DNA of 64,000 nucleotides, taken from assembly GCA_028281535.1 (NCBI GenBank), contig JANQJS010000019.1, positions 1-64,000 on the forward strand, written 5' to 3'. The translations under genes were made by a program, and so were the position numbers. The notes under the pieces are model-generated. The model saw only the letters and a program-made list of their open reading frames with translations. It did no database searches and was not told the origin of the DNA. Source of the stretch: Sedimentisphaerales bacterium (GTDB lineage: Bacteria > Planctomycetota > Phycisphaerae > Sedimentisphaerales > SM23-30). Of this stretch, positions 847 to 18,974 are shown one piece after another. How positions within the stretch are numbered: position 1 is the first letter of the stretch; the number at the start of each line of letters is the position of its first letter.

Positions 847-1389
847 GTGTTGGACGTAACCAACTCAAATAACAAAGATTATGATGAATTTCTACGATTA
901 TTGCTTGTGAATCGTCGTAGAATATATAGTTATATTCTGAAATATGTGCTCAATATGTCAGATGCCGAAGATATTATGCAGGAAACGGTATCGATCATGT
1001 GGCGCAAATTCGATCAATTTGAAGCGGGGACTGCTTTTGGTGCTTGGGGGGTTGCCATTGCAAAAAATGAGGTTCTTAAACTTAATTCAAAGGCGTTTCA
1101 TTCCAAAGTACTTTACACACCTGAGGTTGCGGATTTTATTGAGCAACATAGGACTACCTATTCCGATTCAACACAGGTTTATTTAGAATCACTTAAAACC
1201 TGTATGGAAAAACTTCCTGAAAATGATCGACGTATGATCCAGATGCAATATGAACATGGATTAACGATTAAAGCTATTGCTGAAAAAATTAATCAATCTG
1301 TTCATGTGCTTTATAAAAAGTTTTCGCGTATTCACAGATCACTAATGCAGTGTGTTAATAAAACGGTTGCAGCAGAGGGGAGACGGTAA
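847..1389 (+). CDS. ECF-type RNA polymerase sigma-70 factor
   Basis: A 180-residue sigma factor with region 2 in its first half (the YILKYVLNMSDAEDIMQETV segment, about residues 30-50) and a C-terminal region 4 helix-turn-helix (LPENDRRMIQMQYEHGLTIK, about 120-145). The spacing and sequence fit the Rhodopirellula/Verrucomicrobium-type ECF group that is usually encoded next to a FecR/LamG membrane protein, as here: its stop TAA overlaps the next ATG by one base. The start is GTG at 847, or TTG at 850, behind a purine-rich GGAGAGA. By analogy with FecI-FecR pairs it is probably held or activated by the downstream membrane protein and directs transcription of cell-surface genes. Confidence 0.92.
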   Translation: MLDVTNSNNKDYDEFLRLLLVNRRRIYSYILKYVLNMSDAEDIMQETVSIMWRKFDQFEAGTAFGAWGVAIAKNEVLKLNSKAFHSKVLYTPEVADFIEQHRTTYSDSTQVYLESLKTCMEKLPENDRRMIQMQYEHGLTIKAIAEKINQSVHVLYKKFSRIHRSLMQCVNKTVAAEGRR

Positions 1390-3038
1390 TGCTGGAAGCA
1401 AAAAAACAAGAGCAAATCGAAGAGTTGGTCATGATTGGATTGCATGACAACTTAAGTGTTTCTCAAAGAGAAGAGTTGAATCATGTGCTTGGAAGCGACC
1501 AGGCTGCATTAGAGTATTACCTCGACTTCGTTACGCTCTGTAGTGCCATACGGGAAACGACAGAAGATCAAATTGAAGAGTACACATTACAAGAGCAGGT
1601 GCAGAAACAAGTTGATGTAGAAACGTTGGCAAAGCATCGATTGTCTGAATTTTTAGACTATTCTACATCTCAACCTGAAGAAACTTATACTCCTAGAAAA
1701 CCACGTTTAAAATCTAATTATGCAAAATCATATATTTCATCGATAAAAGCGATTGCTGCTTGTCTGATTGTCATAGGTTGTGGATGGGTTTATCTGCAAA
1801 TGAATCAGTCTCGCAGTGTGGCAAAGATTATTGATACAAAACAGGTTCAATGGAAAGAACCGGGATTTATCGTTCATCAAGAGTCTGAATTACAGGCAGC
1901 ATCTTATCATTTGTTGCAAGGAACCGTGGATATTGAATTTCATAATGGAGCAAGCGTTTCGTTTGAAGGGCCTTGTGAATTTACTTTAACCTCCTCGAGT
2001 AGTGCTTTTCTAACAGCAGGGAAATTGCATGCTCATGTACCGCCACGTGGGGTTGGATTTACTGTAGAAACCCCTGAGGCATCGATTGTGGATCTAGGTA
2101 CAGACTTTAGCGTACATGTTGATGCTCAAGGTCAGAGTGATGTATACGTGTTTGATGGGTTAACCAAACTGTATTCTAAGAAATCTTCACAAAATGTTAA
2201 TGTTATTAAAGGTGAATCGAAGCGTGTTGCTATAAATGGAACTATTACTTCAATTCCTTTATCTGAACATGCCTATGCTAAACAAGAGGCTGAAGTAAAA
2301 AATGGTATAAAACAAGATGAAACTCAAGAAGGAAGTGGTGCTTCTATACTATCACCTTTGGTTGGTTTTACTTTTGGAGATGATGATTCATTGACACAAA
2401 GTAGTATTTTACCAGGTGGACATGTTGTTTCTTTTGCTGGCAACCTGGATCGTATGAATCCCGTATTAGTTTGTCAGCAAGAGAAACCATGTTTAAGAAT
2501 CAATGATTTAAGTGATGAAGATTGGTCTGCTGGTATTACATTTTCATTATGGATTAAACCTGAGCAATGGGTATCACAAAACATTTTATTGCATGGTGTT
2601 TTGGAAGAAGATTATGACATGGATGATATGGCGTTTTATCAACAACTTTATATTGAATCTGATGATGCCAAGGATAGCGTCTATATCGTTTTGAAACATC
2701 ATCCTTTAACGGTCGATGATGAATTTGATGAGGATGCCGTTGTAATGAGAGCCCCAGTCGAATTGCCAGCAGATAATGGGGTTCATATTGCTATTCGCCG
2801 TATGGATGAACATTTTTCATTGTTTATCAACGGTGAAGCTTTGCATTCTGTAACGCATAAGGCTGATAGTATTAATTTTAATATTTTTGATACGACCTTT
2901 TTAGGCGGGTCCTCAGAAATAATGGAAGACGCATTGTCATTACCTGGATTTAAAGGGGTGATGGATGATATTGCAATTTATAATCGAGAACTTACCCACG
3001 AAGAGATTGAATCGTTGTATCGAGAGCTGCAACACTAG
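1389..3038 (+). CDS. FecR-domain membrane protein with C-terminal LamG domain
   Basis: Translationally coupled to the sigma factor (TAATG). The cytoplasmic N-terminus (1-118) is acidic and contains a region that could contact sigma. One membrane helix spans about 119-137. A periplasmic FecR domain follows (about 147-265), including FEGPCEFTL and VDLGTDFSVHVD, and a LamG/concanavalin-like domain fills about 330-549, ending in IYNRELTHEEIESLYREL, a typical LamG ending. The layout fits a transmembrane sigma regulator that senses a carbohydrate or surface ligand; this role is inferred from the family. The large secreted oxidase next door starts about 100 bp later and is the obvious candidate target gene. 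Confidence 0.85.
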   Translation: MLEAKKQEQIEELVMIGLHDNLSVSQREELNHVLGSDQAALEYYLDFVTLCSAIRETTEDQIEEYTLQEQVQKQVDVETLAKHRLSEFLDYSTSQPEETYTPRKPRLKSNYAKSYISSIKAIAACLIVIGCGWVYLQMNQSRSVAKIIDTKQVQWKEPGFIVHQESELQAASYHLLQGTVDIEFHNGASVSFEGPCEFTLTSSSSAFLTAGKLHAHVPPRGVGFTVETPEASIVDLGTDFSVHVDAQGQSDVYVFDGLTKLYSKKSSQNVNVIKGESKRVAINGTITSIPLSEHAYAKQEAEVKNGIKQDETQEGSGASILSPLVGFTFGDDDSLTQSSILPGGHVVSFAGNLDRMNPVLVCQQEKPCLRINDLSDEDWSAGITFSLWIKPEQWVSQNILLHGVLEEDYDMDDMAFYQQLYIESDDAKDSVYIVLKHHPLTVDDEFDEDAVVMRAPVELPADNGVHIAIRRMDEHFSLFINGEALHSVTHKADSINFNIFDTTFLGGSSEIMEDALSLPGFKGVMDDIAIYNRELTHEEIESLYRELQH

Positions 3039-3144
3039 CGCAATCTTAATGTTAATAAAAGTGAAGTATTATTGGTGGATGGATGGCTAGTATCTGTTGG
3101 TGTGTAAAAAATGGAAGTAAAGTAAATTGGAAAGGACATCTGGG

Positions 3145-6100
3145 ATGAAAAACAAAGTAAAAAGTTATATGACAATATTCATAATGGCAGTTCTGTGCTC
3201 ATCTTCTTCGCAGCTATTCGCGCAAGGGTCTTGGACAGCGCCTGTTGCATCAGGTGGTGTCGAAGGGATTCATATGGGAATGTTGCATACAGATCGCGTG
3301 TTTGTCTATGGTTGGCGTGAAGGGGGGCCGCATGTTTATCGTATATTTAATCCTGCAAACCCAACCCAAGGAACGAGCGGTAGTACCTCTGGCGATCATT
3401 TTTGTGCTGGCCATAGTGTACTAGAAGATGGTTCGTTTCTGATTGTTGATGGTACCGCCGGTGGGGCCATTGCACGTTTCAATCCTATTACAGAAACATT
3501 TCCTGTAGTAGGTAATACCATTACGAATGACGAACGATGGTACCCATCAACGATGATTTTGGGTAATGGACTTGTGGTCACCTTTGGTGGTGTTCCTTCA
3601 GGTGGAACAGCGACATCAGACCCTGCTAACTTACTTTCTGCAGAAATTTACAATCCAACCAGCCATAGTATTAATTATTTAAATGGCGGTGGTGCTGTTT
3701 TGGGATATCAGCAAGGTGGTACTGCTTATTCTCGTGTCTTTATGGTACCGACGAATAATCCAAACCCCAATATCTTTAAAATATTTAATCCCGGCCCATC
3801 AGCCCAATCTTATTTTTATGAAATTAATACGAATACTTTGACCAGTACCATGACTCTAGGCCCGGTAGATCCTTTCACACCACCAGCCAGTGGCGGTGAA
3901 CCCGCCGGGCGTTTGGAAGCCATATATGTTCGTTTGCATGATGGCCGAGTGCTTGCTGCGGGTGGATTTAGTTTAGATGAATCCACAGCACCCGTGAATA
4001 CTGCAGCTATTGTCGATCCAGAAGCTGCCTCGCCTTCATGGTCAGCTGTTGCAAGTATGAATGTTTCTCGTCACTACTTTTTAGCTAGCATGTTAGCAGA
4101 TGGTCGCGTACTGGTTTATGGTAGTGGTACATCGGCAGAAATTTATAATCCTGCTACGAATACCTGGACCAATGTTCCGAATATGTCTTTACCTCGTGGT
4201 TATCATGCGACAGGTGTATTGATGCCTGATGGCAAAGTAATTGTTTCTGGTGGTCAAGGTAATGGAGGCTTAGGTGGGTATGGCGAAACAGATCAGATTC
4301 AGATTTATTCACCTGATTATCTTACGGCAGGTGCTCGTCCAACCATCACATCGTCTCCCACGCAAGCAGGCTATGGTCAAAACATTAATGTAGGTTATAC
4401 CTCGAGCAGTCCGATTACCGATGTTGTTTTACGGCGACCGGGTACATCAACGCATAGTTTTACTTATAATATGATTGGTGTGAGTCAGTTGAGTGGTGAT
4501 ATTGCTGTAACAGATAATGGCTCTTCATTGACCGTAACGGTTCCATCCAATCCTACCTTACTTCCTCCTGGATATTATATGATGTATATTTTCCGATCGA
4601 ATTCAGGCACACAAATTCCATCGGTTGCTGCGTGGGTTCAAATCGGTGACTTTGCTCCAGCTGAAACGGATCCTCCCACACCCAATCCAGCCACTTTTGC
4701 ATCTGCGCCTACAGTGAATGGTTCACAAATTGATATGACAGCAACAGCGGGTTCTGATGCAACGCTTCCAATTGATTACTTCTTTGATGAAACCTCAGGA
4801 AATTTTGGTGGTGACGATAGTGGTTGGCAGAATTCCACAAGCTATTCAGATACCAGCTTAATTGGTAATACACAATATTGTTATACCGTTCAGATGCGTG
4901 ATGGGGCAGGTAATGCTGGCACTGCTTCATCTCCTTCATGTGCAACCACGGGTAATATAGATTCAAGTGCTCCAACTCCTATTGGATTTGCCGTCGCTCC
5001 TTCTGCTGTCGGCGATACCATGATCACTATGACGGCACTGACCGCTAGTGATGATACACCGCCGATTAGTTATCAGTTTCAAGAAACGTCTGGAAATTCA
5101 GGTGCGACGAGTAGTGGATGGCAATCATCTACCACGCATTTGGATTATGGTTTAACACCCAATACACAATATTGCTATCAAGTTCGTGCTCGTGATGCCG
5201 TGGGGATTCCCAATGTGTCAGCTTATTCAGCCAATACGTGTGCGACGACGAATGTTGAAGATGGCTATGTTGAAATTCAAGTAGGACCTGGTAATGTATT
5301 TACGCCATCGGATGTCACGATTAATGTGGGTGATACGGTGGAATGGAATTTTGTAGAAGGTGGCCACAACGTTTGGGCTGGATTGACTGGCGCACATAAT
5401 TTCTTTGATAATAATCCAAGTCAGATCATCTTTAGTTCTTCGGCAACACCACAAACTACCAATCCTGCGGGAGTGCTATATGCCATGACATTTGATCAAA
5501 CCTTTTTGTGTGGCACAACAGGCGATGGCGGAAGTTCAAATGTTTATAACTATCACTGTCATATTCATGGCAGCGGTATTCCAAACTTTATGGCTGGACA
5601 AATTACCATCAATGGAGGAATGGATGCCGATCTGAATAATGATAATATCGTTAATGTTTTAGATCTTAATTTGTTTGCGAGTGGTTGGCTTATGCCGAAT
5701 TGCAATCAGTCGAATAATTATTGTAACGAGACAAACCTCTCATGTGATGGTTTAACCAGCCTCAATGATTTTGCTTTACTGCATGGTTTCTGGCTAAACA
5801 TACTTGATAATACCGCTCCTACACCTAATCCGGCGACATTTGCTTCTCCGCCAGCGGCAGATAGTGATAGTGCGATTAGCATGATTGCGACTACTGGTAG
5901 TGATGTCGCAAGTCCTGTGGAATATTTCTTTGATGAAATCTCCGGCAATAGCGGTGGAAGTGATAGTGCTTGGCAGACATCAACCAGTTATACCGATTCC
6001 GGATTAGCAGAGTCTACTCAGTATCAATACACTGTTCAGATGCGTGATGCATTTGGTAATGTTGGAACAGCATCAGCTGTCTCTAGTGCGACGACAGATT

Positions 6101-6630
6101 CATCTTGTGGAAGCGGTCAACCTTTTAGCGATTATCTAGGTGCAGGCCATACTACAGGTATTACGGTAACTCAGAGTAGTTCTGATGGCACCTCAACGGG
6201 ATTGAAAACAATTGATGGGTCTGGTTTGACGGGTAATGCTCATGATACAAGTGAATTCAGTGCATGGCAAAGCCCGGATACTGCTGCAAATCCAAATCCT
6301 GCTCGCGGCACGGGTCATTGGATCCAATATGATTTTGGTCAGCTTTATACACTTGGTATGTTACATGTCTGGAATCATAATGAAACTTGCTGTACAACAC
6401 GTGGAATGCAAAGTGTTAAGATTGATTATTCACAAGATGGCTCCACATGGATAGAGCTAACGGGTGTACCTAATTTCCCTCAAGCTCCGGGTAACAATAG
6501 TTACACTGGATTTGATGCTGTTGATTTTGGTGGTATTTGTGCTCGTTATGTGATTATAACTTCTATTAGTAATTATGGTGACGGATTTTCTCACTCACTG
6601 GGCGAAGTGAAATTTAATTTGAATCCATAA
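3145..6630 (+). CDS. Secreted galactose/glyoxal-oxidase-like copper radical oxidase with FN3, cupredoxin, dockerin-like and discoidin domains
   Basis: A modular exported enzyme. ATG 3145 is preferred over TTG 3127 because GGAAAGGA lies 8 bp upstream and a signal peptide ending in LFAQG follows. The kelch propeller and DUF1929-type domain (to about residue 500) keep the ligands of galactose oxidase: Cys87 in FCAGH and Tyr133 in RWYPSTM (the thioether pair), Tyr353-His354 in RGYHATG, and His437 in TSTHSF (numbering from 3145). It therefore probably oxidises an alcohol or aldehyde with O2, releasing H2O2. Two FN3 modules, a plastocyanin-like copper domain (His in GGHNVW, then YHCHIHG and a Met), a dockerin-like DADLNNDNIVNVLDLNLF repeat, a third FN3 and a C-terminal discoidin (F5/8) domain follow. 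Substrate unknown; the discoidin domain suggests glycan binding. Confidence 0.85.
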   Translation: MKNKVKSYMTIFIMAVLCSSSSQLFAQGSWTAPVASGGVEGIHMGMLHTDRVFVYGWREGGPHVYRIFNPANPTQGTSGSTSGDHFCAGHSVLEDGSFLIVDGTAGGAIARFNPITETFPVVGNTITNDERWYPSTMILGNGLVVTFGGVPSGGTATSDPANLLSAEIYNPTSHSINYLNGGGAVLGYQQGGTAYSRVFMVPTNNPNPNIFKIFNPGPSAQSYFYEINTNTLTSTMTLGPVDPFTPPASGGEPAGRLEAIYVRLHDGRVLAAGGFSLDESTAPVNTAAIVDPEAASPSWSAVASMNVSRHYFLASMLADGRVLVYGSGTSAEIYNPATNTWTNVPNMSLPRGYHATGVLMPDGKVIVSGGQGNGGLGGYGETDQIQIYSPDYLTAGARPTITSSPTQAGYGQNINVGYTSSSPITDVVLRRPGTSTHSFTYNMIGVSQLSGDIAVTDNGSSLTVTVPSNPTLLPPGYYMMYIFRSNSGTQIPSVAAWVQIGDFAPAETDPPTPNPATFASAPTVNGSQIDMTATAGSDATLPIDYFFDETSGNFGGDDSGWQNSTSYSDTSLIGNTQYCYTVQMRDGAGNAGTASSPSCATTGNIDSSAPTPIGFAVAPSAVGDTMITMTALTASDDTPPISYQFQETSGNSGATSSGWQSSTTHLDYGLTPNTQYCYQVRARDAVGIPNVSAYSANTCATTNVEDGYVEIQVGPGNVFTPSDVTINVGDTVEWNFVEGGHNVWAGLTGAHNFFDNNPSQIIFSSSATPQTTNPAGVLYAMTFDQTFLCGTTGDGGSSNVYNYHCHIHGSGIPNFMAGQITINGGMDADLNNDNIVNVLDLNLFASGWLMPNCNQSNNYCNETNLSCDGLTSLNDFALLHGFWLNILDNTAPTPNPATFASPPAADSDSAISMIATTGSDVASPVEYFFDEISGNSGGSDSAWQTSTSYTDSGLAESTQYQYTVQMRDAFGNVGTASAVSSATTDSSCGSGQPFSDYLGAGHTTGITVTQSSSDGTSTGLKTIDGSGLTGNAHDTSEFSAWQSPDTAANPNPARGTGHWIQYDFGQLYTLGMLHVWNHNETCCTTRGMQSVKIDYSQDGSTWIELTGVPNFPQAPGNNSYTGFDAVDFGGICARYVIITSISNYGDGFSHSLGEVKFNLNP

Positions 6631-8925: not shown

Positions 8926-9153
8926 ATGTCTGCGTCAGAGAAAAAAAATCGGGGCGAAAAAGTTGTCAATGGTTGGTTTATGGTGTTGCTGATCGTGGTA
9001 TTCAGCATCGCGTACCATTACTTTTTTGAGGGTATGTTTTTCTTACAAGAGACCAGGATCCCTAACCCGGCGACAGTTTATTTATTGAGTTTTGGCTCGA
9101 TGGTATTGCTGGTTAGGTATTACAAAAAAATACTGCATAGTCGCACAATGTAA
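8926..9153 (+). CDS. Small two-helix membrane protein of the polysaccharide export operon
   Basis: 75 residues with two hydrophobic segments (about 17-40 and 49-65) flanked by charged ends. It has its own ribosome-binding site and ends 13 bp before the Wza-like lipoprotein gene, so it is probably the first gene of the export operon. No family recognised; a role in polysaccharide assembly or export is inferred only from position. Confidence 0.55.
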   Translation: MSASEKKNRGEKVVNGWFMVLLIVVFSIAYHYFFEGMFFLQETRIPNPATVYLLSFGSMVLLVRYYKKILHSRTM

Positions 9154-9166
9154 ATTTAGGTTACAT

Positions 9167-10210
9167 ATGAATTTCTATAAACAGTTATTAGCTTTAGTAT
9201 GGACCGTGATATTGACATGCTTAATGGCAGGATGTCAGGATCATAAGATTTCATCATCTACGGAGATCAATGATTTTTCGAAGATGGAGCCCGGATGGTC
9301 TAAAGTGTCTGAGGATGTCAAAGATATTTCAGGGTCTCCTGGTCCTTACCGTGTCATCGCAGGTGATGTGTTAGAGTTTACGCTGCCATTTATGGTTGAA
9401 CGTGTTGAAATGGCGGAAGAAAAAAACTCATTTGAGAAACAGAAAGCCTATCATTGTCGAGTGAGCTCAGATGGAACAATTTCCATGCCTCTTTTGGGAC
9501 AGGTTTTTGTTGAAGACTTAAATCTTCCAGACATAGAAGCGTTGTTAATTAAAGCATACCATCCAAAATATTTGGTAGATCGCCCAGCGATCGTTGGCAA
9601 AGTTATAGAATATCAAAAACAGAGTGTGACAATTTTGGGAGCTGTAAAAGAGCCGGGGATTGTCATGTTACAGCATGATGAGATGACGTTGTATTCTGCA
9701 GTGATGAAAGCTGGTGGTATTACTGACAAGGGTGCCATGACGATCGAAGTAACACGCAAGGATAAAGAGAATAAAAGTGAGTCTGTGTTATTGCCCATTC
9801 GTCATAAGAATGTACCGATGGCTAATATTCAGCTGCGTCATGGTGACCATATAGAAGTAAAACCTTTTATACAACAAAGCATTACTGTTACTGGATTGGT
9901 TAATCGGCCCGGTGTTTTTCCTATCGAGCCAGGCATGAAAACGAGTGTTATAGATGCGTTGGCCTATGCGGGTGGTTTAAATACGGTTGCTGATCCACAA
10001 GTGGTTCGCGTCATGAGACAGAATGAGAATGGCGAGTTAATTAATATTAAATTAGGTGTAAAAGAAAAAGAGATAGCCAAAGCTGCAAGTATTCAGTTGC
10101 GATCGGGTGATATCATTACGGTTGATCAGACAGTACGAACACGAACGAGATTGTTTTTATCAGAAATTTTGAAAATTGGAACAGGTATCAATGTAGGGAA
10201 ATCTTACTAG
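9167..10210 (+). CDS. Polysaccharide export lipoprotein (Wza/SLBB family)
   Basis: Outer-membrane polysaccharide export protein. The start is ATG 9167, which gives a lipoprotein signal peptide ending in CLMAGC; a longer upstream frame from 9092 lacks a signal and overlaps the previous gene. The export domain starts with GPYRVIAGDVLEFTLP and contains SSDGTISMPLLGQVFVEDL. Two SLBB-type segments follow (VTILGAVKEPGIVML and ITVTGLVNRPGVFPIEPG). It should form the outer-membrane part of the export channel and work with the Wzz/BY-kinase protein encoded 30 bp downstream. Confidence 0.93.
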   Translation: MNFYKQLLALVWTVILTCLMAGCQDHKISSSTEINDFSKMEPGWSKVSEDVKDISGSPGPYRVIAGDVLEFTLPFMVERVEMAEEKNSFEKQKAYHCRVSSDGTISMPLLGQVFVEDLNLPDIEALLIKAYHPKYLVDRPAIVGKVIEYQKQSVTILGAVKEPGIVMLQHDEMTLYSAVMKAGGITDKGAMTIEVTRKDKENKSESVLLPIRHKNVPMANIQLRHGDHIEVKPFIQQSITVTGLVNRPGVFPIEPGMKTSVIDALAYAGGLNTVADPQVVRVMRQNENGELINIKLGVKEKEIAKAASIQLRSGDIITVDQTVRTRTRLFLSEILKIGTGINVGKSY

Positions 10211-10240
10211 TTTAAGTGAGACGCCTTTAAGAAATAATAT

Positions 10241-12787
10241 ATGACAAACAAGATTCGACCAACAACTCCAATCCAATCGGGTGATTCAAAGAATGAATTA
10301 CACGAGATGGTAGAAATGGTACGCCGGATAATTAAAATTATTTGGCGATGGCGGTGGTGTTTTGTTTTCTCATTGACCATAAGTATCATTGCTGCCTTTA
10401 TCTATCTCAAGACGACCCCTCCAGTGTATCGAAATGTGTCACGGCTTTATGTTGAACGATCAGGCCCCAAAATTATATCTAGAGAAGAAGGGGTTCTCAC
10501 TCAATCCAAGAATTATTTCTATACACAAGCCGAGCTCTTGTTGTCAACTCCTGTGTTGTCTAAAGTTGCCGATGATCCTGCAATTTCTTCTTTAGACATA
10601 TTTAAAGGCAAAGTAGACAAGGTCTCTTTTTTGAAAAAAGGTTTAAGAAGTGGTGTAGGTAAAACCAATGATGTGATTTCATTAGGGTTTGATAGTCATT
10701 ATCCTGAACAAGGGGCTCAGGTTGTAAATGCCATTGTTAATGCTTATGTAAGCTATCATGCTGACCGAAAGCGATCGACATCACAGGAAGTATTGGAGAT
10801 TTTAAAAAATGAAAAACGTCAACGCGAAGCAGAGTTAAATGAAAAACTTCAAAAAATATTGGAGTTTAATCAAAATAATACGGTTTTTGCATTTCAGGAA
10901 GATCGTCAAAATGTGGTATTGCAGAGATTATCGACCCTGTCAGATGCATTAACGAAAATACAATTGGAAAATATTGATAAGAAAACACAATTGGAAACCA
11001 TAAAGTCAATATTGCCAAATCCGGATATGCTGGAAAATTTTATTCGTTCCCCAGAAAGTCAAAAGTACTTAACAAAGTTTAATTCTGAGCAGGCACAACT
11101 TAAAGAAAAATTGAAGCGATTTGAAACCAAATTAAAAACCATGCTTCAATATTTTACACACGAGCATCCGAGTGTGCAAAAGGCTAAAGCACAAATAGCG
11201 GAAACGAATAATGAACTGGATCATCTTGGGTCAAATGTTGCTTCTTACATCGAACAGGAAGTATCGCGTCAATGGCAGACCGTTCAGAAAAAACAAGAGC
11301 AGATTCAAAAATCTTTTGATGCTCAAAAACTCGACTTGCAAGAGCTGAATACTCGTGAAGCCGAGTTGGCTATTTTAAAATCAGAGGCAAACCGTATCGA
11401 CCGGATTAATGGTATTTTAGATGAACGTATTAAAGAGATGAATGTGACGGATGATGTTGGTATATTTAATATTACGATATTGGAAACAGCTAGAAAGCCG
11501 CGAGCTCCGATATCTCCAAATACTTTTCTTGTTTTATTAACGGCGATAATTTGCGGTACAGCAATTGGATCTACTTTGGTGTTTATTATGGAAATGAGCT
11601 TGACTGGACTCTCTCATGCAAAAGATATTTCCGCGGTATTTCAAGTACCTATTTTAGGGATGGTTCCCCGGATGTCTGATCAGAGTTCTATTTCAAGTTG
11701 TGGCCAACAGGTTCGCTTACAGCCAGACGGTATTGCTTCTCAGGGGTATCAAACCATTCGCAACCGCCTGCAGTATTATCAAGCTGATAAAAATGTAAAA
11801 ACGATTTTAATTGCATCTGCTGAGTCTGGTGAAGGTAAGTCTTTATTTGCAAGCAATATTGCTATTTCCTTTGCCAAATCTGGTCAACGTACATTAATAG
11901 TTGATGCCAATTTAAGAAATCCGATGCAGCATGAAGTCTTTTTATTGAATGCCGATCGGGGGTTAACCAGTGTGTTGTCAGGTCAGAATTTATTGTCACG
12001 TGCGATTCAGCAAACCTCCTCTCCATCCTTGGATGTTTTGCCTGCTGGGCCTTTGATAGGAAATCCTTCAGATGTTCTAGGCAGTGATGTTTTTCATGAG
12101 ATCTTATCAACGCTTAGTAAAAGTTATGACCGAGTCATTGTCGATAGTACCGCAATGAATCATGCGGCAGACTCTGCAGCATTGGGTGCTGTCTGTGATG
12201 CGACGTTATTGATCGTCAAGGCAGAAAAAACCACGCGAAAAGCAGGGTTGAAATTAATGGATCGTCTTGAGAGTGTTGGAAGTCATATTCTTGGTGTAGT
12301 TGTTAATGATGTCTTTAGAGATGAAGAAAATTACATTAACCGCTATCAAGGTATGAAGGAAAAATCAAAATCTGCAGAACCAATCGCTGTTCAAGCCCCG
12401 GTGGTTGTGAGTCAGCCAGTTTCTCAACCTGTGCATTTTTCTGATTCACAGCAGCCATTGAGTTTGAAGTTAGATCAAATCAAGGAACCGTTGGTTAAAC
12501 AGATGAATCATGAGAAAGAAGTGATCCAGGATATTCATCAGAAAGTGGATTCGATCAATGATGAGCTTCAAAAAGTATTGCCGTCTGATCAATTAAAAAA
12601 TCTCTTTGCAGCGAGTCAAAAAGAAATAGAAGAAAAGATGGATTCCGCTGGCATGATGAATATGTTGGAAGAAAACCTTAAAATGATTCAAAAAATGATG
12701 GACCATCATGGCATGAATGCTGAGCCTCGTGAGGTTACTCAATCGAAATCTGTTGAACCAGAGATTAAAAAAGACATGTCTGACTAG
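10241..12787 (+). CDS. Wzz-like chain-length protein fused to a BY-kinase (CpsD-like) ATPase domain
   Basis: 848-residue inner-membrane polysaccharide co-polymerase. First helix at about 38-57, periplasmic coiled coil (about 190-400), the PxxP-type KPRAPISP before the second helix at about 428-450, then a cytoplasmic P-loop domain: Walker A SAESGEGKS (526-534), A' motif TLIVDANLRNP, and Walker B-like YDRVIVDST in place of the usual DTPP. It should control polysaccharide chain length and export with the upstream Wza-like protein. Unusually, the roughly 145-residue tail has no tyrosine; instead of a Tyr cluster it has a Gln/Val/Pro linker and a Met-rich coiled coil. It may therefore not autophosphorylate in the usual way. 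Its stop overlaps the convergent transporter gene by 4 bp. Confidence 0.85.
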   Translation: MTNKIRPTTPIQSGDSKNELHEMVEMVRRIIKIIWRWRWCFVFSLTISIIAAFIYLKTTPPVYRNVSRLYVERSGPKIISREEGVLTQSKNYFYTQAELLLSTPVLSKVADDPAISSLDIFKGKVDKVSFLKKGLRSGVGKTNDVISLGFDSHYPEQGAQVVNAIVNAYVSYHADRKRSTSQEVLEILKNEKRQREAELNEKLQKILEFNQNNTVFAFQEDRQNVVLQRLSTLSDALTKIQLENIDKKTQLETIKSILPNPDMLENFIRSPESQKYLTKFNSEQAQLKEKLKRFETKLKTMLQYFTHEHPSVQKAKAQIAETNNELDHLGSNVASYIEQEVSRQWQTVQKKQEQIQKSFDAQKLDLQELNTREAELAILKSEANRIDRINGILDERIKEMNVTDDVGIFNITILETARKPRAPISPNTFLVLLTAIICGTAIGSTLVFIMEMSLTGLSHAKDISAVFQVPILGMVPRMSDQSSISSCGQQVRLQPDGIASQGYQTIRNRLQYYQADKNVKTILIASAESGEGKSLFASNIAISFAKSGQRTLIVDANLRNPMQHEVFLLNADRGLTSVLSGQNLLSRAIQQTSSPSLDVLPAGPLIGNPSDVLGSDVFHEILSTLSKSYDRVIVDSTAMNHAADSAALGAVCDATLLIVKAEKTTRKAGLKLMDRLESVGSHILGVVVNDVFRDEENYINRYQGMKEKSKSAEPIAVQAPVVVSQPVSQPVHFSDSQQPLSLKLDQIKEPLVKQMNHEKEVIQDIHQKVDSINDELQKVLPSDQLKNLFAASQKEIEEKMDSAGMMNMLEENLKMIQKMMDHHGMNAEPREVTQSKSVEPEIKKDMSD

Positions 12788-16256: not shown

Positions 16257-18974
16257 ATGACAAATGACCCTGCCCCCGCGACGAAACCTAAGTTTGTATA
16301 TCTCATTGTTTGTTTTGTTTTTTTACTAATGCTTGTCACTGCGTTGATAGCTCAAGTGCCATCGTTCATTGGTTGGCTGGAAACAAAAGAGTCTGGTATT
16401 GCACAAAGCTTGGCTGATTCAGAGTTCATCAAATTTTGTGGTCGCTTTCATCCGATGATTTTACATTTTCCTGTGGCACTTCTGACGATATTGCTTTTGT
16501 TTGAAGTGATTGCATTTTTTAGAACCTCCAAAGGGTTTGAGGCGGCGATGTGGATTTTGCTGATTCTGGGTTGGCTCTCAGCGGTTAAGGCGTCTATCTT
16601 CGGCGTTTTTCTTTCCTGGAGCGGTGGTTACGATTCCGAAACGCTGTATTGGCACAAATGGTTAGGTATTGCTGTTGCCATATTGTCCACTATTTTAGTC
16701 GTACCGAAATTAATGTATGGCATAAAAAAGAAGAAAAAGTTTTTGCATACTTATCGAGTACTGTTAGTAGGTTGTGCGGTTTTGATTTCCTTTGCAGGTC
16801 ATTATGGAGCCAATCTGACACATGGTTCAAATTATTTAACGGAATATATGCCTGATTCTATCGCCAATTTATTGGGCATCGAAAAGGGCGCATCAAAAAC
16901 TGTGGTTGCATCCAGTGGTGATTTTGCCAATAACGTTTGGCCCATATTAGAATCACAATGTCTTCAGTGTCATGGTGCGGAAAAGCAAAAAGGTGATTTT
17001 CGCGTTGATTCTTTGGAAGCGTTGTTGTTTGGTGGCGAGAGTATGACTCCCGGGGTTGTCAAAGGCGATGCGATGGCCAGTGAACTCATCCGTCGTGTAC
17101 TTTTGCCAATAGAGCATGATGAAGTGATGCCACCTGAAGGCAAAGGTGTGATGACACCAGAAGATATTATGACGCTGGTGAATTGGGTTAATCGTGGTGC
17201 TCAGTGGGCAGAGGGGACGTCAGTGGCAGAGGCTGTTGAAGAGACTGAAGTCACTGTCACGCAGAAGCCAAGGGTTGAGATTGAATTGCCAGAGGTGGTT
17301 GATTTTGATGTTCATATTATGCCGATCTTGCAAGAGCGATGTATCGAGTGTCATGGTCCTGAAAAACAAAAAGGAAAATTGCGTGTCGATTCGCTTGCTT
17401 GGATTGCCAAAGGTTCTCGAGGCGACCCTGTTGTTATTTCTGGTAATCCAGATGAAAGTTCATTTTACACATTAACTATTTTACCTGAAGATGATCCAGA
17501 TATCATGCCAGCCAAAGGGGATCCGCTGACAAAAGCACAACAAGCATTGATTTACCGTTGGATCGAACAGGGTGTAGACTTTCCTGCTGAAGAACCTGTT
17601 GAGCAAATTCAACCAGAGAAAGAACAAAGTCATAAAAGTGAACCAGCCGCCTCTTCTTTAGCGGCGGTCGCATTTGGTTCTGGACCGAAAAATAGTATTT
17701 CATATGAAAAAGATATCGAGCCTATTTTAAGACAAAATTGTACCCGTTGTCATGGCATTAATCGTCAGGAAAGTGGTTTGCGTTTGGATTCTTTGGAATG
17801 GATTGCCAAAGGGGCAGATGGTGCACCGGTGATTATCTCAGGGAAACCAGAAGAAAGCGAATTGGTTTATTTAATCAATCTTTCACCTGACAATGAACGG
17901 TTTATGCCATATAAAAATGAGCCATTAAGTCGGATGGAAATTGAATTAATTGAAGAGTGGATTCGACAAGGGGTGAAACTACCCAAAGTGGATCCAACCG
18001 AGGTCACTTTAACAGGTGATAAAATTGACTTTAAAAGAGACATCATGCCCATCATGAATAAGCATTGTGTTGAGTGCCATGGTACGGTGAAGCAGAAAGG
18101 CCAGGTTCGTGTTGATTCTTTAGAGTGGATTGCTAAGGGGGCTGACGGTGAACCGATCGCAATATCTGGTCGACCTCAAGATAGTAAGCTTTATACATTA
18201 ACTATTTTGCCTGCGGATCACCCTGATGTGATGCCTGCAAAAGGAGATACCTTAAGCAAAGCTGAAACGGAATTGCTTCGCAAATGGTTATTGCAAGGTG
18301 AAAAAATGTTAGAGGTTGAAGTCCAAAAACCTGAAGTGGCTGATCCCGCCTTGTCTCGGCCTTTAATTCATTTTGCCAATCAAGTGCAGCCGATTTTTAA
18401 TCAAAGTTGTGTGGAATGTCATGGCCCTGATAAGCAATATAGTCAATTGCGATTGGATTCTTTGGAACAATTAAATAAAGGTGCAAATGGAAATTCGGTT
18501 GTTGTCGCTGGCGATGATAAAGCCAGTAAACTGTATGATCTAATTTCTTTGCCATTTGCGCATGATGATTTTATGCCAGCTCAGGGGGATCCTCTCACCG
18601 ATGAAGAAACAGAATTGGTTCGCAGCTGGATTGTCCAGGGGGCGGGTGATGGTGTTCCTATTCATTTTGCCAGCCAGATTCAACCGATTTTTAATCAAAC
18701 TTGTGTCCATTGCCATGGGCCGGAAAAGCAAAAAGGCCAATTGCGATTGGATTCATTTGAATGGCTCAGTAAAGGTGCTGGTGGCAAAGAGGTGGTTGTT
18801 GCTGGAAATCCTGAAAAAAGCTTACTTTATAAATTGGTAACTTTACCATTTGAACATGTTGATTTTATGCCAGCTCGTGGCGAGAAATTGCCTCAAGAGC
18901 AAGCTGATTTATTACGTGACTGGATTGTTCAGGGAGCACGTCAAGTCGATTCAAACCAGGTCTCTAAACATTAA
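16257..18974 (+). CDS. Membrane protein with six tandem planctomycete cytochrome c domains
   Basis: 905 residues. The N-terminus (to about 220) has about five helices, including GRFHPMILHFPVALL, YWHKWLG and GHYGANLTHGSNYLTEYMP; this resembles DUF2231-type membrane modules with conserved histidines. Six PSCyt1-like repeats follow, with heme motifs at residues 235 (CLQCH), 362 (CIECH), 495 (CTRCH), 604 (CVECH), 718 (CVECH) and 816 (CVHCH). Each repeat also has an LRLDS-like strand and a Met-Pro (MPAKGD, MPYKNE, MPAQGD, MPARGE and similar) that may supply the distal Met ligand. It should carry electrons from periplasmic oxidations. Repeats 2-4 share DSLEWIAKG almost exactly, which suggests internal duplication. 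The dehydrogenase gene follows after 23 bp. Confidence 0.9.
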   Translation: MTNDPAPATKPKFVYLIVCFVFLLMLVTALIAQVPSFIGWLETKESGIAQSLADSEFIKFCGRFHPMILHFPVALLTILLLFEVIAFFRTSKGFEAAMWILLILGWLSAVKASIFGVFLSWSGGYDSETLYWHKWLGIAVAILSTILVVPKLMYGIKKKKKFLHTYRVLLVGCAVLISFAGHYGANLTHGSNYLTEYMPDSIANLLGIEKGASKTVVASSGDFANNVWPILESQCLQCHGAEKQKGDFRVDSLEALLFGGESMTPGVVKGDAMASELIRRVLLPIEHDEVMPPEGKGVMTPEDIMTLVNWVNRGAQWAEGTSVAEAVEETEVTVTQKPRVEIELPEVVDFDVHIMPILQERCIECHGPEKQKGKLRVDSLAWIAKGSRGDPVVISGNPDESSFYTLTILPEDDPDIMPAKGDPLTKAQQALIYRWIEQGVDFPAEEPVEQIQPEKEQSHKSEPAASSLAAVAFGSGPKNSISYEKDIEPILRQNCTRCHGINRQESGLRLDSLEWIAKGADGAPVIISGKPEESELVYLINLSPDNERFMPYKNEPLSRMEIELIEEWIRQGVKLPKVDPTEVTLTGDKIDFKRDIMPIMNKHCVECHGTVKQKGQVRVDSLEWIAKGADGEPIAISGRPQDSKLYTLTILPADHPDVMPAKGDTLSKAETELLRKWLLQGEKMLEVEVQKPEVADPALSRPLIHFANQVQPIFNQSCVECHGPDKQYSQLRLDSLEQLNKGANGNSVVVAGDDKASKLYDLISLPFAHDDFMPAQGDPLTDEETELVRSWIVQGAGDGVPIHFASQIQPIFNQTCVHCHGPEKQKGQLRLDSFEWLSKGAGGKEVVVAGNPEKSLLYKLVTLPFEHVDFMPARGEKLPQEQADLLRDWIVQGARQVDSNQVSKH

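Follow-up and report, generated by a model that had tools for sequence, protein, structure and literature searches.

A secreted copper radical oxidase (CRO) with a cupredoxin domain in the same chain is encoded near the start of a 64,000-nucleotide stretch of a Sedimentisphaerales bacterium (Planctomycetota, Phycisphaerae; assembly GCA_028281535.1, contig JANQJS010000019.1, positions 1 to 64,000 of the forward strand), here called the window. The gene occupies 3145-6630, stop codon included (coding part 3145-6627), and is one of 31 paralogues in the genome. The preferred reading, to which a probability of roughly 0.5 is given, is that the protein is an oxidase of the GlxA/glyoxal oxidase type, bound to the cell surface or a matrix, with its cupredoxin as a tethered activator, and that it belongs to a set of paralogues switched by sensors.

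The reading frame (3127 or 3145 to 6630) is confirmed as real. This and every other feature of the window cited below lies on the plus strand. The product of 1161 amino acids is secreted, with the N-terminal residues MKNKVKSYMTIFIMAVLCSSSSQLFA read as a signal peptide (residues 1-26). A probable ribosome-binding site, GGAAAGGA, was read from the sequence at 3129-3136, 8 nt before the ATG at 3145. From N- to C-terminus the modules are the CRO, two fibronectin type III (FN3) modules, the cupredoxin, a dockerin-like repeat, a third FN3 module and a discoidin domain.

The oxidase head and the cupredoxin

The CRO consists of a kelch β-propeller (residues 28-395; 3226-4329) and a galactose oxidase-like E-set domain (residues 398-500; 4336-4644). 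The propeller is identified by kelch repeats (Pfam, 2.7e-8), a partial Glyoxal_oxid_N match, a phmmer match to Streptomyces GlxA, and AlphaFold2 (AF2) with Foldseek; the E-set domain matches GO-like_E_set (PF09118) at 1.3e-17. Cys87 (3403-3405) is the expected cysteine of the Cys-Tyr cofactor (Cys228 of galactose oxidase). Trp132-Tyr133 (3538-3543), aligned to the wild-type and W288A chains of GlxA, supply the second-shell tryptophan and the cross-linked tyrosine in the W288-Y289 arrangement of that enzyme. Tyr353-His354 (4201-4206) correspond to the axial tyrosine and histidine ligand of galactose oxidase (Tyr495-His496), and His437 (4453-4455), in the E-set domain, is the second histidine ligand. 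The initial annotation had proposed that the kelch part keeps the Cys, two Tyr and two His of galactose oxidase; these five residues do align with those of solved CROs, and the comparison with galactose and glyoxal oxidase structures that it called for puts the copper-site residues in place, with a fold match at E of about 1e-32.

The same five residues show no variation among 60 aligned CROs (the window protein and 59 from many phyla); the identity of the window CRO to the other 59 is 28-34% for nearly all. Trp132 is found in at least 90% of them. Within the genome, Cys87 and Trp132 are present in every paralogue that covers the position, and the paralogues keep the active-site residues with the exception of the axial tyrosine in four. 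By these alignments the CRO active site is complete, and a Cys-Tyr cross-link is predicted.

An AF2 model of 828 residues, built with the alignment of the 59 external CROs, agrees with this picture in the CRO part, where the predicted local distance difference test (pLDDT) score is mostly 75-98 (mostly 75-96 in the propeller). When the model was compared with the PDB by Foldseek, the top 27 fold matches were all CROs (6stx, 6ryx, 1gof, 9g43, 4unm and others), with E values from 1e-25 to 1e-32. The FN3/cupredoxin part of the model was not resolved (pLDDT < 40), and a single-sequence AF2 run on the full protein gave a mean pLDDT of 31.

Among solved structures the best sequence match is Streptomyces GlxA (4unm; phmmer E 6.2e-25). 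With GlxA (the SCO2837 family) the window protein has in common the propeller and E-set domain, the first-shell residues, the tryptophan just before the cross-linked tyrosine, secretion, and a Sco gene in the genome. The identity is about 20%, however, and the NCBIfam model for radical copper oxidase GlxA (NF052501) gives 136.4 bits (9.5e-40), below its equivalog cut-off of 800 bits. The window CRO is, by these scores, homologous to GlxA and not the same orthologue. GlxA is also a single gene tied to CslA, without a cupredoxin or FN3 tail, whereas here there are 31 copies with cupredoxin and sigma factor cassettes. Fungal AA5 oxidases, both AA5_1 (FgrAldOx, 9n3u) and AA5_2 (1gof, 6stx), have the same fold and copper site, but are 20-24% identical in structural alignments, and the matched chains lack a cupredoxin or laccase. 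The placement of Trp132 is that of GlxA W288 and unlike that of W290 in galactose oxidase. A tryptophan just before the cross-linked tyrosine also occurs in the fungal aldehyde oxidase FgrAldOx (PMC13094651). The position of Trp132 thus points to the aldehyde/GlxA side of the family more than to a galactose-oxidising enzyme.

The cupredoxin, of plastocyanin/azurin type, lies at 5260-5622. For the window copy the Copper-bind model (PF00127) gives E 0.0011 and 19.8 bits against a cut-off of 21.2 bits; paralogues reach 22.5 and 37.7 bits. The plastocyanin-like site expected from the first reading, with His, Cys, His and Met, is present as a full set of type 1 (T1) ligands: His741 (5365-5367), Cys805 (5557-5559), His808 (5566-5568) and the axial Met816 (5590-5592). 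None of the 31 cupredoxin domains in the genome departs from His741, Cys805 and His808, and His751, His804 and His806 are likewise unchanged. Position 816 is Met in 23 of the 31 and His in eight. In cupredoxins with axial His, e.g., at L026:16204-19899, L027:4592-10300 and L032:5902-11178, the motif is LHSGTITV or LHDGTITV instead of FMAGQITI.

The FN3 modules lie at 4660-4953 (residues 506-603), 4963-5253 (residues 607-703) and 5800-6096 (residues 886-984; Ig_Rha78A_N/fn3). Pfam matches of FN3 type in the protein are Ig_Rha78A_N (1.5e-7), Interfer-bind (7e-7) and fn3 (4e-5). The discoidin (F5/8 type C) domain is found at 6166-6582 (residues 1008-1146; PF00754, F5_F8_type_C, 1.9e-11). Between the cupredoxin and the third FN3 module is a dockerin-like double calcium-loop repeat (5623-5796, residues 827-884). 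The chain of five modules announced beside the CRO is thereby borne out, the cupredoxin, FN3 and discoidin modules by Pfam or ligands and the dockerin-like part by sequence pattern only; no Pfam dockerin model matched the protein at E ≤ 1, and the resemblance lies in the two calcium-loop patterns. The same repeat occurs in two other CRO paralogues and in several neighbouring secreted proteins.

Thirty-one paralogues in one genome

A profile search detected 31 GO-like E-set domains in the genome, all in paralogues of the window gene. The view of the protein as a lone oddity therefore has to be given up. The paralogues are spread over many contigs, some longer than 200 kb, of an assembly whose listed completeness is 99.4% and contamination 0.01%. 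In a tree of 108 rows made by a quick method, the 31 CRO sequences fall into a single clade with a Shimodaira-Hasegawa-like approximate likelihood ratio (SH-aLRT) support of 100. Other sampled genomes of the same family gave no PF09118 match, and the order-level sample gave a single weak fragment (G050). Few of the 397 genomes of the class (Phycisphaerae) and 392 of the phylum have any CRO; the maximum is seven firm matches (G505), and up to nine matches in G059 are all very weak and partial. On the evidence of the tree and of these counts, the family is an in-genome radiation from one ancestor. It seems not to have been described before.

The ancestor of the radiation probably already had the cupredoxin, because a long CRO that lacks it nests inside the cupredoxin-bearing copies. 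A cupredoxin is present in 29 of the 30 CRO frames longer than 600 residues. The paralogue at L022:6435-10139 (minus strand), without cupredoxin, has PASTA repeats, F5/8 type C and HpiC1-like domains. A stop or frameshift interrupts a further copy on C43, and the start of one CRO falls at a contig edge. A CRO-cupredoxin copy (L028:4669-8205, minus strand) extends over three frames and is either a pseudogene or an assembly error.

The modules have not diverged equally. Mean pairwise identity among the paralogues is 45% in the propeller versus 59-63% in the E-set domain, the FN3 modules and the cupredoxin. Fully conserved alignment columns are proportionally most frequent in the cupredoxin (26 of 121), compared with 14-15 of about 98 in the FN3 modules and 29 of 368 in the propeller. 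This pattern, in which the putative substrate-binding propeller diverged and the copper partner stayed unchanged, fits many substrates served by a common redox or copper partner. Homogenisation of the FN3 modules and cupredoxin by recombination could contribute to their higher identity.

In 22 copies, 206-212 residues separate the end of the CRO from the start of the cupredoxin; two copies have 309-313, one has 629 and four have 810-815. The linkers of 206-212 residues hold two FN3 modules; the others hold three, or several together with other domains. In the four longest, a complete CotA-type laccase stands between FN3 modules. These giants, each with CRO, laccase, cupredoxin and many FN3 modules, are encoded at L045:7063-15906 and L046:3-6743 on the minus strand and at L041:3841-12099 and L040:6209-14371 on the plus strand. 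Their lengths run from 2247 residues (cut at a contig end) to 2947. The 524-residue insert of L045 is a full-length homologue of CotA (1gsk), its best match at 2.9e-106, and the laccase copper motifs HLH, HDH, HPMHMH and HCH-x3-H-x4-M are intact in all four. The difference from CotA is that the laccase is embedded between CRO and cupredoxin in a protein of 2250-2950 residues. The giants form a clade of their own, and it is in exactly these four paralogues that the axial tyrosine of the CRO is replaced by Asp or Glu, the other first-shell residues being kept. The strangest feature seen is that one chain combines three kinds of copper centre, coupled to a change at the axial position.

Fusions of a CRO with a T1 copper domain are found elsewhere. 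A motif scan covered 131 CRO reading frames (with a few duplicates, and two of the genome's own copies), and CROs were collected from GTDB with two peptide patterns, the own genome excluded; further fusions may exist. In Anaeromyxobacter sp. RBG_16_69_14 a protein of 950 residues (L099:5489-8338) has a multicopper oxidase with T1 motifs followed by a CRO, confirmed by Pfam. In the planctomycete G434 a protein of 745 residues (L137:43-2277) has an N-terminal T1-like motif, YVCIEHGGMRGNI, followed by a CRO; here the copper part is identified by motif only, with no Pfam copper match. Like the window family, both have a CRO and a copper domain or motif in one chain, but the copper part is N-terminal, no FN3 linker is seen, and they are single proteins. 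Their CROs group together weakly (89), outside the 31-member clade. The idea that the CRO-cupredoxin combination is unique to this genome is ruled out by these two proteins. The combination of CRO and T1 copper probably arose more than once, to judge from the different order and the tree. Among the genomes sampled, the order CRO-FN3-FN3-cupredoxin, the laccase-bearing form and the 31-copy family occur only here. The earlier statement that no enzyme with CRO and cupredoxin together has been described holds for the literature searched, which yielded no paper on a CRO fused with a cupredoxin or laccase (subscription papers lay outside the coverage); it does not hold as a statement about natural proteins, since such fusions exist in another order. 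AA5 is not mentioned in the papers found on carbohydrate enzymes of Phycisphaerae or Planctomycetota.

Proposed role of the tethered copper domain

In the preferred reading, the CRO head, with copper, Cys87-Tyr133, Tyr353, His354, His437 and Trp132, would oxidise an extracellular alcohol or aldehyde with O2 and release H2O2. The substrate is probably on a glycan or a small sugar product, and the FN3, dockerin-like and discoidin modules would hold the enzyme on polysaccharide. Held on a flexible arm, the cupredoxin would act as a tethered one-electron copper partner, most likely taking an electron from the semi-reduced, inactive CRO and so restoring the radical state. Reduction of the radical site makes CROs lose activity, and they depend on a redox activator (PMC10928124). 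COX1 and Sco genes stand side by side on C34, which makes O2 use and copper delivery plausible. The probable repeated origin of the CRO/T1 fusion favours a functional link between the two parts.

Several points weigh against this reading. In a CRO, O2 is reduced at the enzyme's own copper, which means that turnover can proceed without an electron carrier and does not call for the cupredoxin as an electron sink. The potential of a plastocyanin-like site may not be high enough for it to oxidise a GlxA-type cofactor, and the axial His in eight of the 31 cupredoxins means that potentials may differ within the family. The paralogue with PASTA domains in place of the cupredoxin has an intact active site. 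Finally, the spread of linker lengths from 206 to 815 residues argues against fixed docking of the cupredoxin on the CRO; a flexible arm fits such a spread.

The same variable linker, and the CRO without cupredoxin, would be expected if the cupredoxin were an independent module of a mosaic surface protein, serving, e.g., as an electron sink or in matrix binding, with no dealings with the CRO. The genome is rich in mosaic FN3 proteins that have the same regulatory cassettes and other heads (G8/CEMIP, redoxin). However, no cupredoxin was seen in the non-CRO FN3 giants examined, while the domain occurs in nearly all long CRO frames, downstream of the CRO and with the 206-212 residue spacing in 22. 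The invariant ligands and the separate CRO/T1 fusions in other organisms also make such independence doubtful.

CRO activation and copper loading are both conceivable tasks of a tethered T1 copper domain. If it were a copper store or loading domain, it would feed the CRO site for formation of the Cys-Tyr bond and replace the Sco/ECuC/DtpA route of GlxA. Maturation of GlxA relies on copper supplied by Sco and related proteins (PMC4736821). A tether would make loading independent of linker length, in keeping with the observed spread, and the invariant His751, His804 and His806 could form a second copper site. Against this, T1 cupredoxins keep a tight hold on copper and generally serve as electron carriers, and the genome has a Sco of its own. 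Most CROs mature without such a domain, and the other sampled CROs lack it save for the two fusions of different order. Copper loading is thus judged improbable. Activation is rated somewhat above it in view of the electron-carrying nature of T1 sites and of the laccase that four copies have in their chain.

A bolder form of the preferred reading, put forward tentatively and judged rather unlikely, is that these are self-activating oxidases, in which a built-in blue-copper oxidant (plus a laccase in four) keeps or restores the Cu(II)-radical state, in an arsenal of 31 individually switched members. There is no settled account of how the active radical state of CROs is maintained in nature; enzymes studied in the laboratory depend on added oxidants. 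If self-activation were true, the cupredoxin or laccase would do the job of the peroxidases or chemical oxidants used with isolated CROs. With a CRO naturally fused to a one-electron copper protein, the activation question can be put to a single expressed protein and its point mutants.

That a single chain can hold as many as three different copper modules, one of them a full-length CotA-like laccase with all its motifs, might instead point to a copper-handling or Mn/Fe-oxidising surface system in which CRO, laccase and cupredoxin act on metals or produce oxidants, with no part in glycan modification. This is quite unlikely, since the discoidin and FN3 tails and the LamG domains of the anti-sigma factors point to glycans, and no metal-oxide or metal-resistance genes were found among the neighbours scanned.

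Least probable is a non-catalytic kelch scaffold or adhesin in a variable repertoire of surface proteins. The large family of long FN3-rich paralogues, the broken C43 copy and the axial tyrosine lost in four might speak for it, but alignment A1, with 26 paralogues, shows no change in the Cys, the cross-linked Tyr, the axial Tyr or either His despite 45% propeller identity, and Trp132 is retained wherever the position is covered.

The family widens the known bacterial use of CROs from single copies to a large paralogue set behind sensor-type regulators. Its 31 sequences with diverged propellers are available for substrate screening.

Predicted regulatory cassettes and neighbouring genes

Upstream of the oxidase gene, the cassette starts with a gene for an extracytoplasmic function (ECF) sigma factor of 180 residues (847-1389; Sigma70_r2 5e-11, Sigma70_r4_2 1.1e-7). 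It is followed by a gene for a membrane anti-sigma factor (1389-3038; FecR 1.6e-6, Laminin_G_3 1.6e-12). The latter protein has a cytoplasmic N-terminal part, one transmembrane segment (about residues 116-134), the FecR domain and a C-terminal LamG domain of carbohydrate-binding type; a hydrophobic segment was present in all 20 anti-sigma homologues tested. Sigma regions 2 and 4 beside a FecR protein with a single transmembrane segment identify an ECF/FecR-type pair, by which the CRO is predicted to be regulated.

Homologues of the window sigma gene lie upstream of 23 further CRO genes (24 in total). The order sigma, then FecR-LamG is directly upstream of 21 CRO genes, counting the window gene and a partial one on C33. 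In three cases (L021, L022:2 and L025) the sigma gene is followed by a masked stretch or by no FecR frame, and for seven CRO genes neither partner is in view. At L021 and L022, where a sigma-FecR fusion had been suspected, the stretch concerned is masked with N. With its LamG domain outside the membrane, the anti-sigma factor may sense glycans in the manner attributed to SigI/RsgI pairs. Glycan sensed outside the cell by the ECF/FecR-LamG pair would switch on the matching oxidase, with about three quarters of the paralogues behind an ECF gene.

SigI/RsgI of Clostridium thermocellum are polysaccharide-sensing sigma/anti-sigma pairs (PMC4711584, PMC6056542). The likeness lies in many paralogous pairs of a sigma and a membrane anti-sigma factor, with an outer domain of carbohydrate-binding type, beside extracellular enzymes acting on carbohydrate. 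The difference is that the families here are ECF sigma and FecR-LamG anti-sigma factors, whose sensing and targets are predicted.

Duplication of the sigma and anti-sigma genes together with their CRO was also considered and rejected. Over 19 cassettes, the CRO identity matrix shows no correlation with that of the sigma or the FecR proteins (CRO-sigma r = -0.01, CRO-FecR r = 0.08), so no simple cassette duplication is seen.

FecR-LamG homologues number roughly 31 in the genome, and about ten precede proteins other than CROs, some with G8/CEMIP or redoxin domains. For example, a protein of 1997 residues (L159:6588-12581, minus strand) with G8, CEMIP β-helix and cadherin-like domains lies behind such a cassette. 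Two FN3-tailed proteins behind ECF/FecR-LamG cassettes (L161:996-5534 and L169:7006-11184, both minus strand) are homologous over their N-terminal 700 residues or so (64% identity), a part without Pfam match.

Near the CRO genes there are recurrent pairs of proteins of about 500 residues with a dockerin-like C-terminus (e.g., L033:11423-14752, L044:2058-5262 and L026:12074-15295). Of four pair members scanned, three had no Pfam match and one had LamG. A redoxin and subtilase protein of 1821 residues (L035:10966-16431, minus strand) adjoins a CRO gene. In the window, SLBB/Poly_export polysaccharide export and Wzz chain-length genes are found at 9092-12787, about 2.5 kb downstream of the CRO gene; the product exported is perhaps a matrix for the CRO to act on. 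Further downstream, at 16257-18974, a protein of 905 residues has repeated matches to planctomycete cytochrome (PSCyt1).

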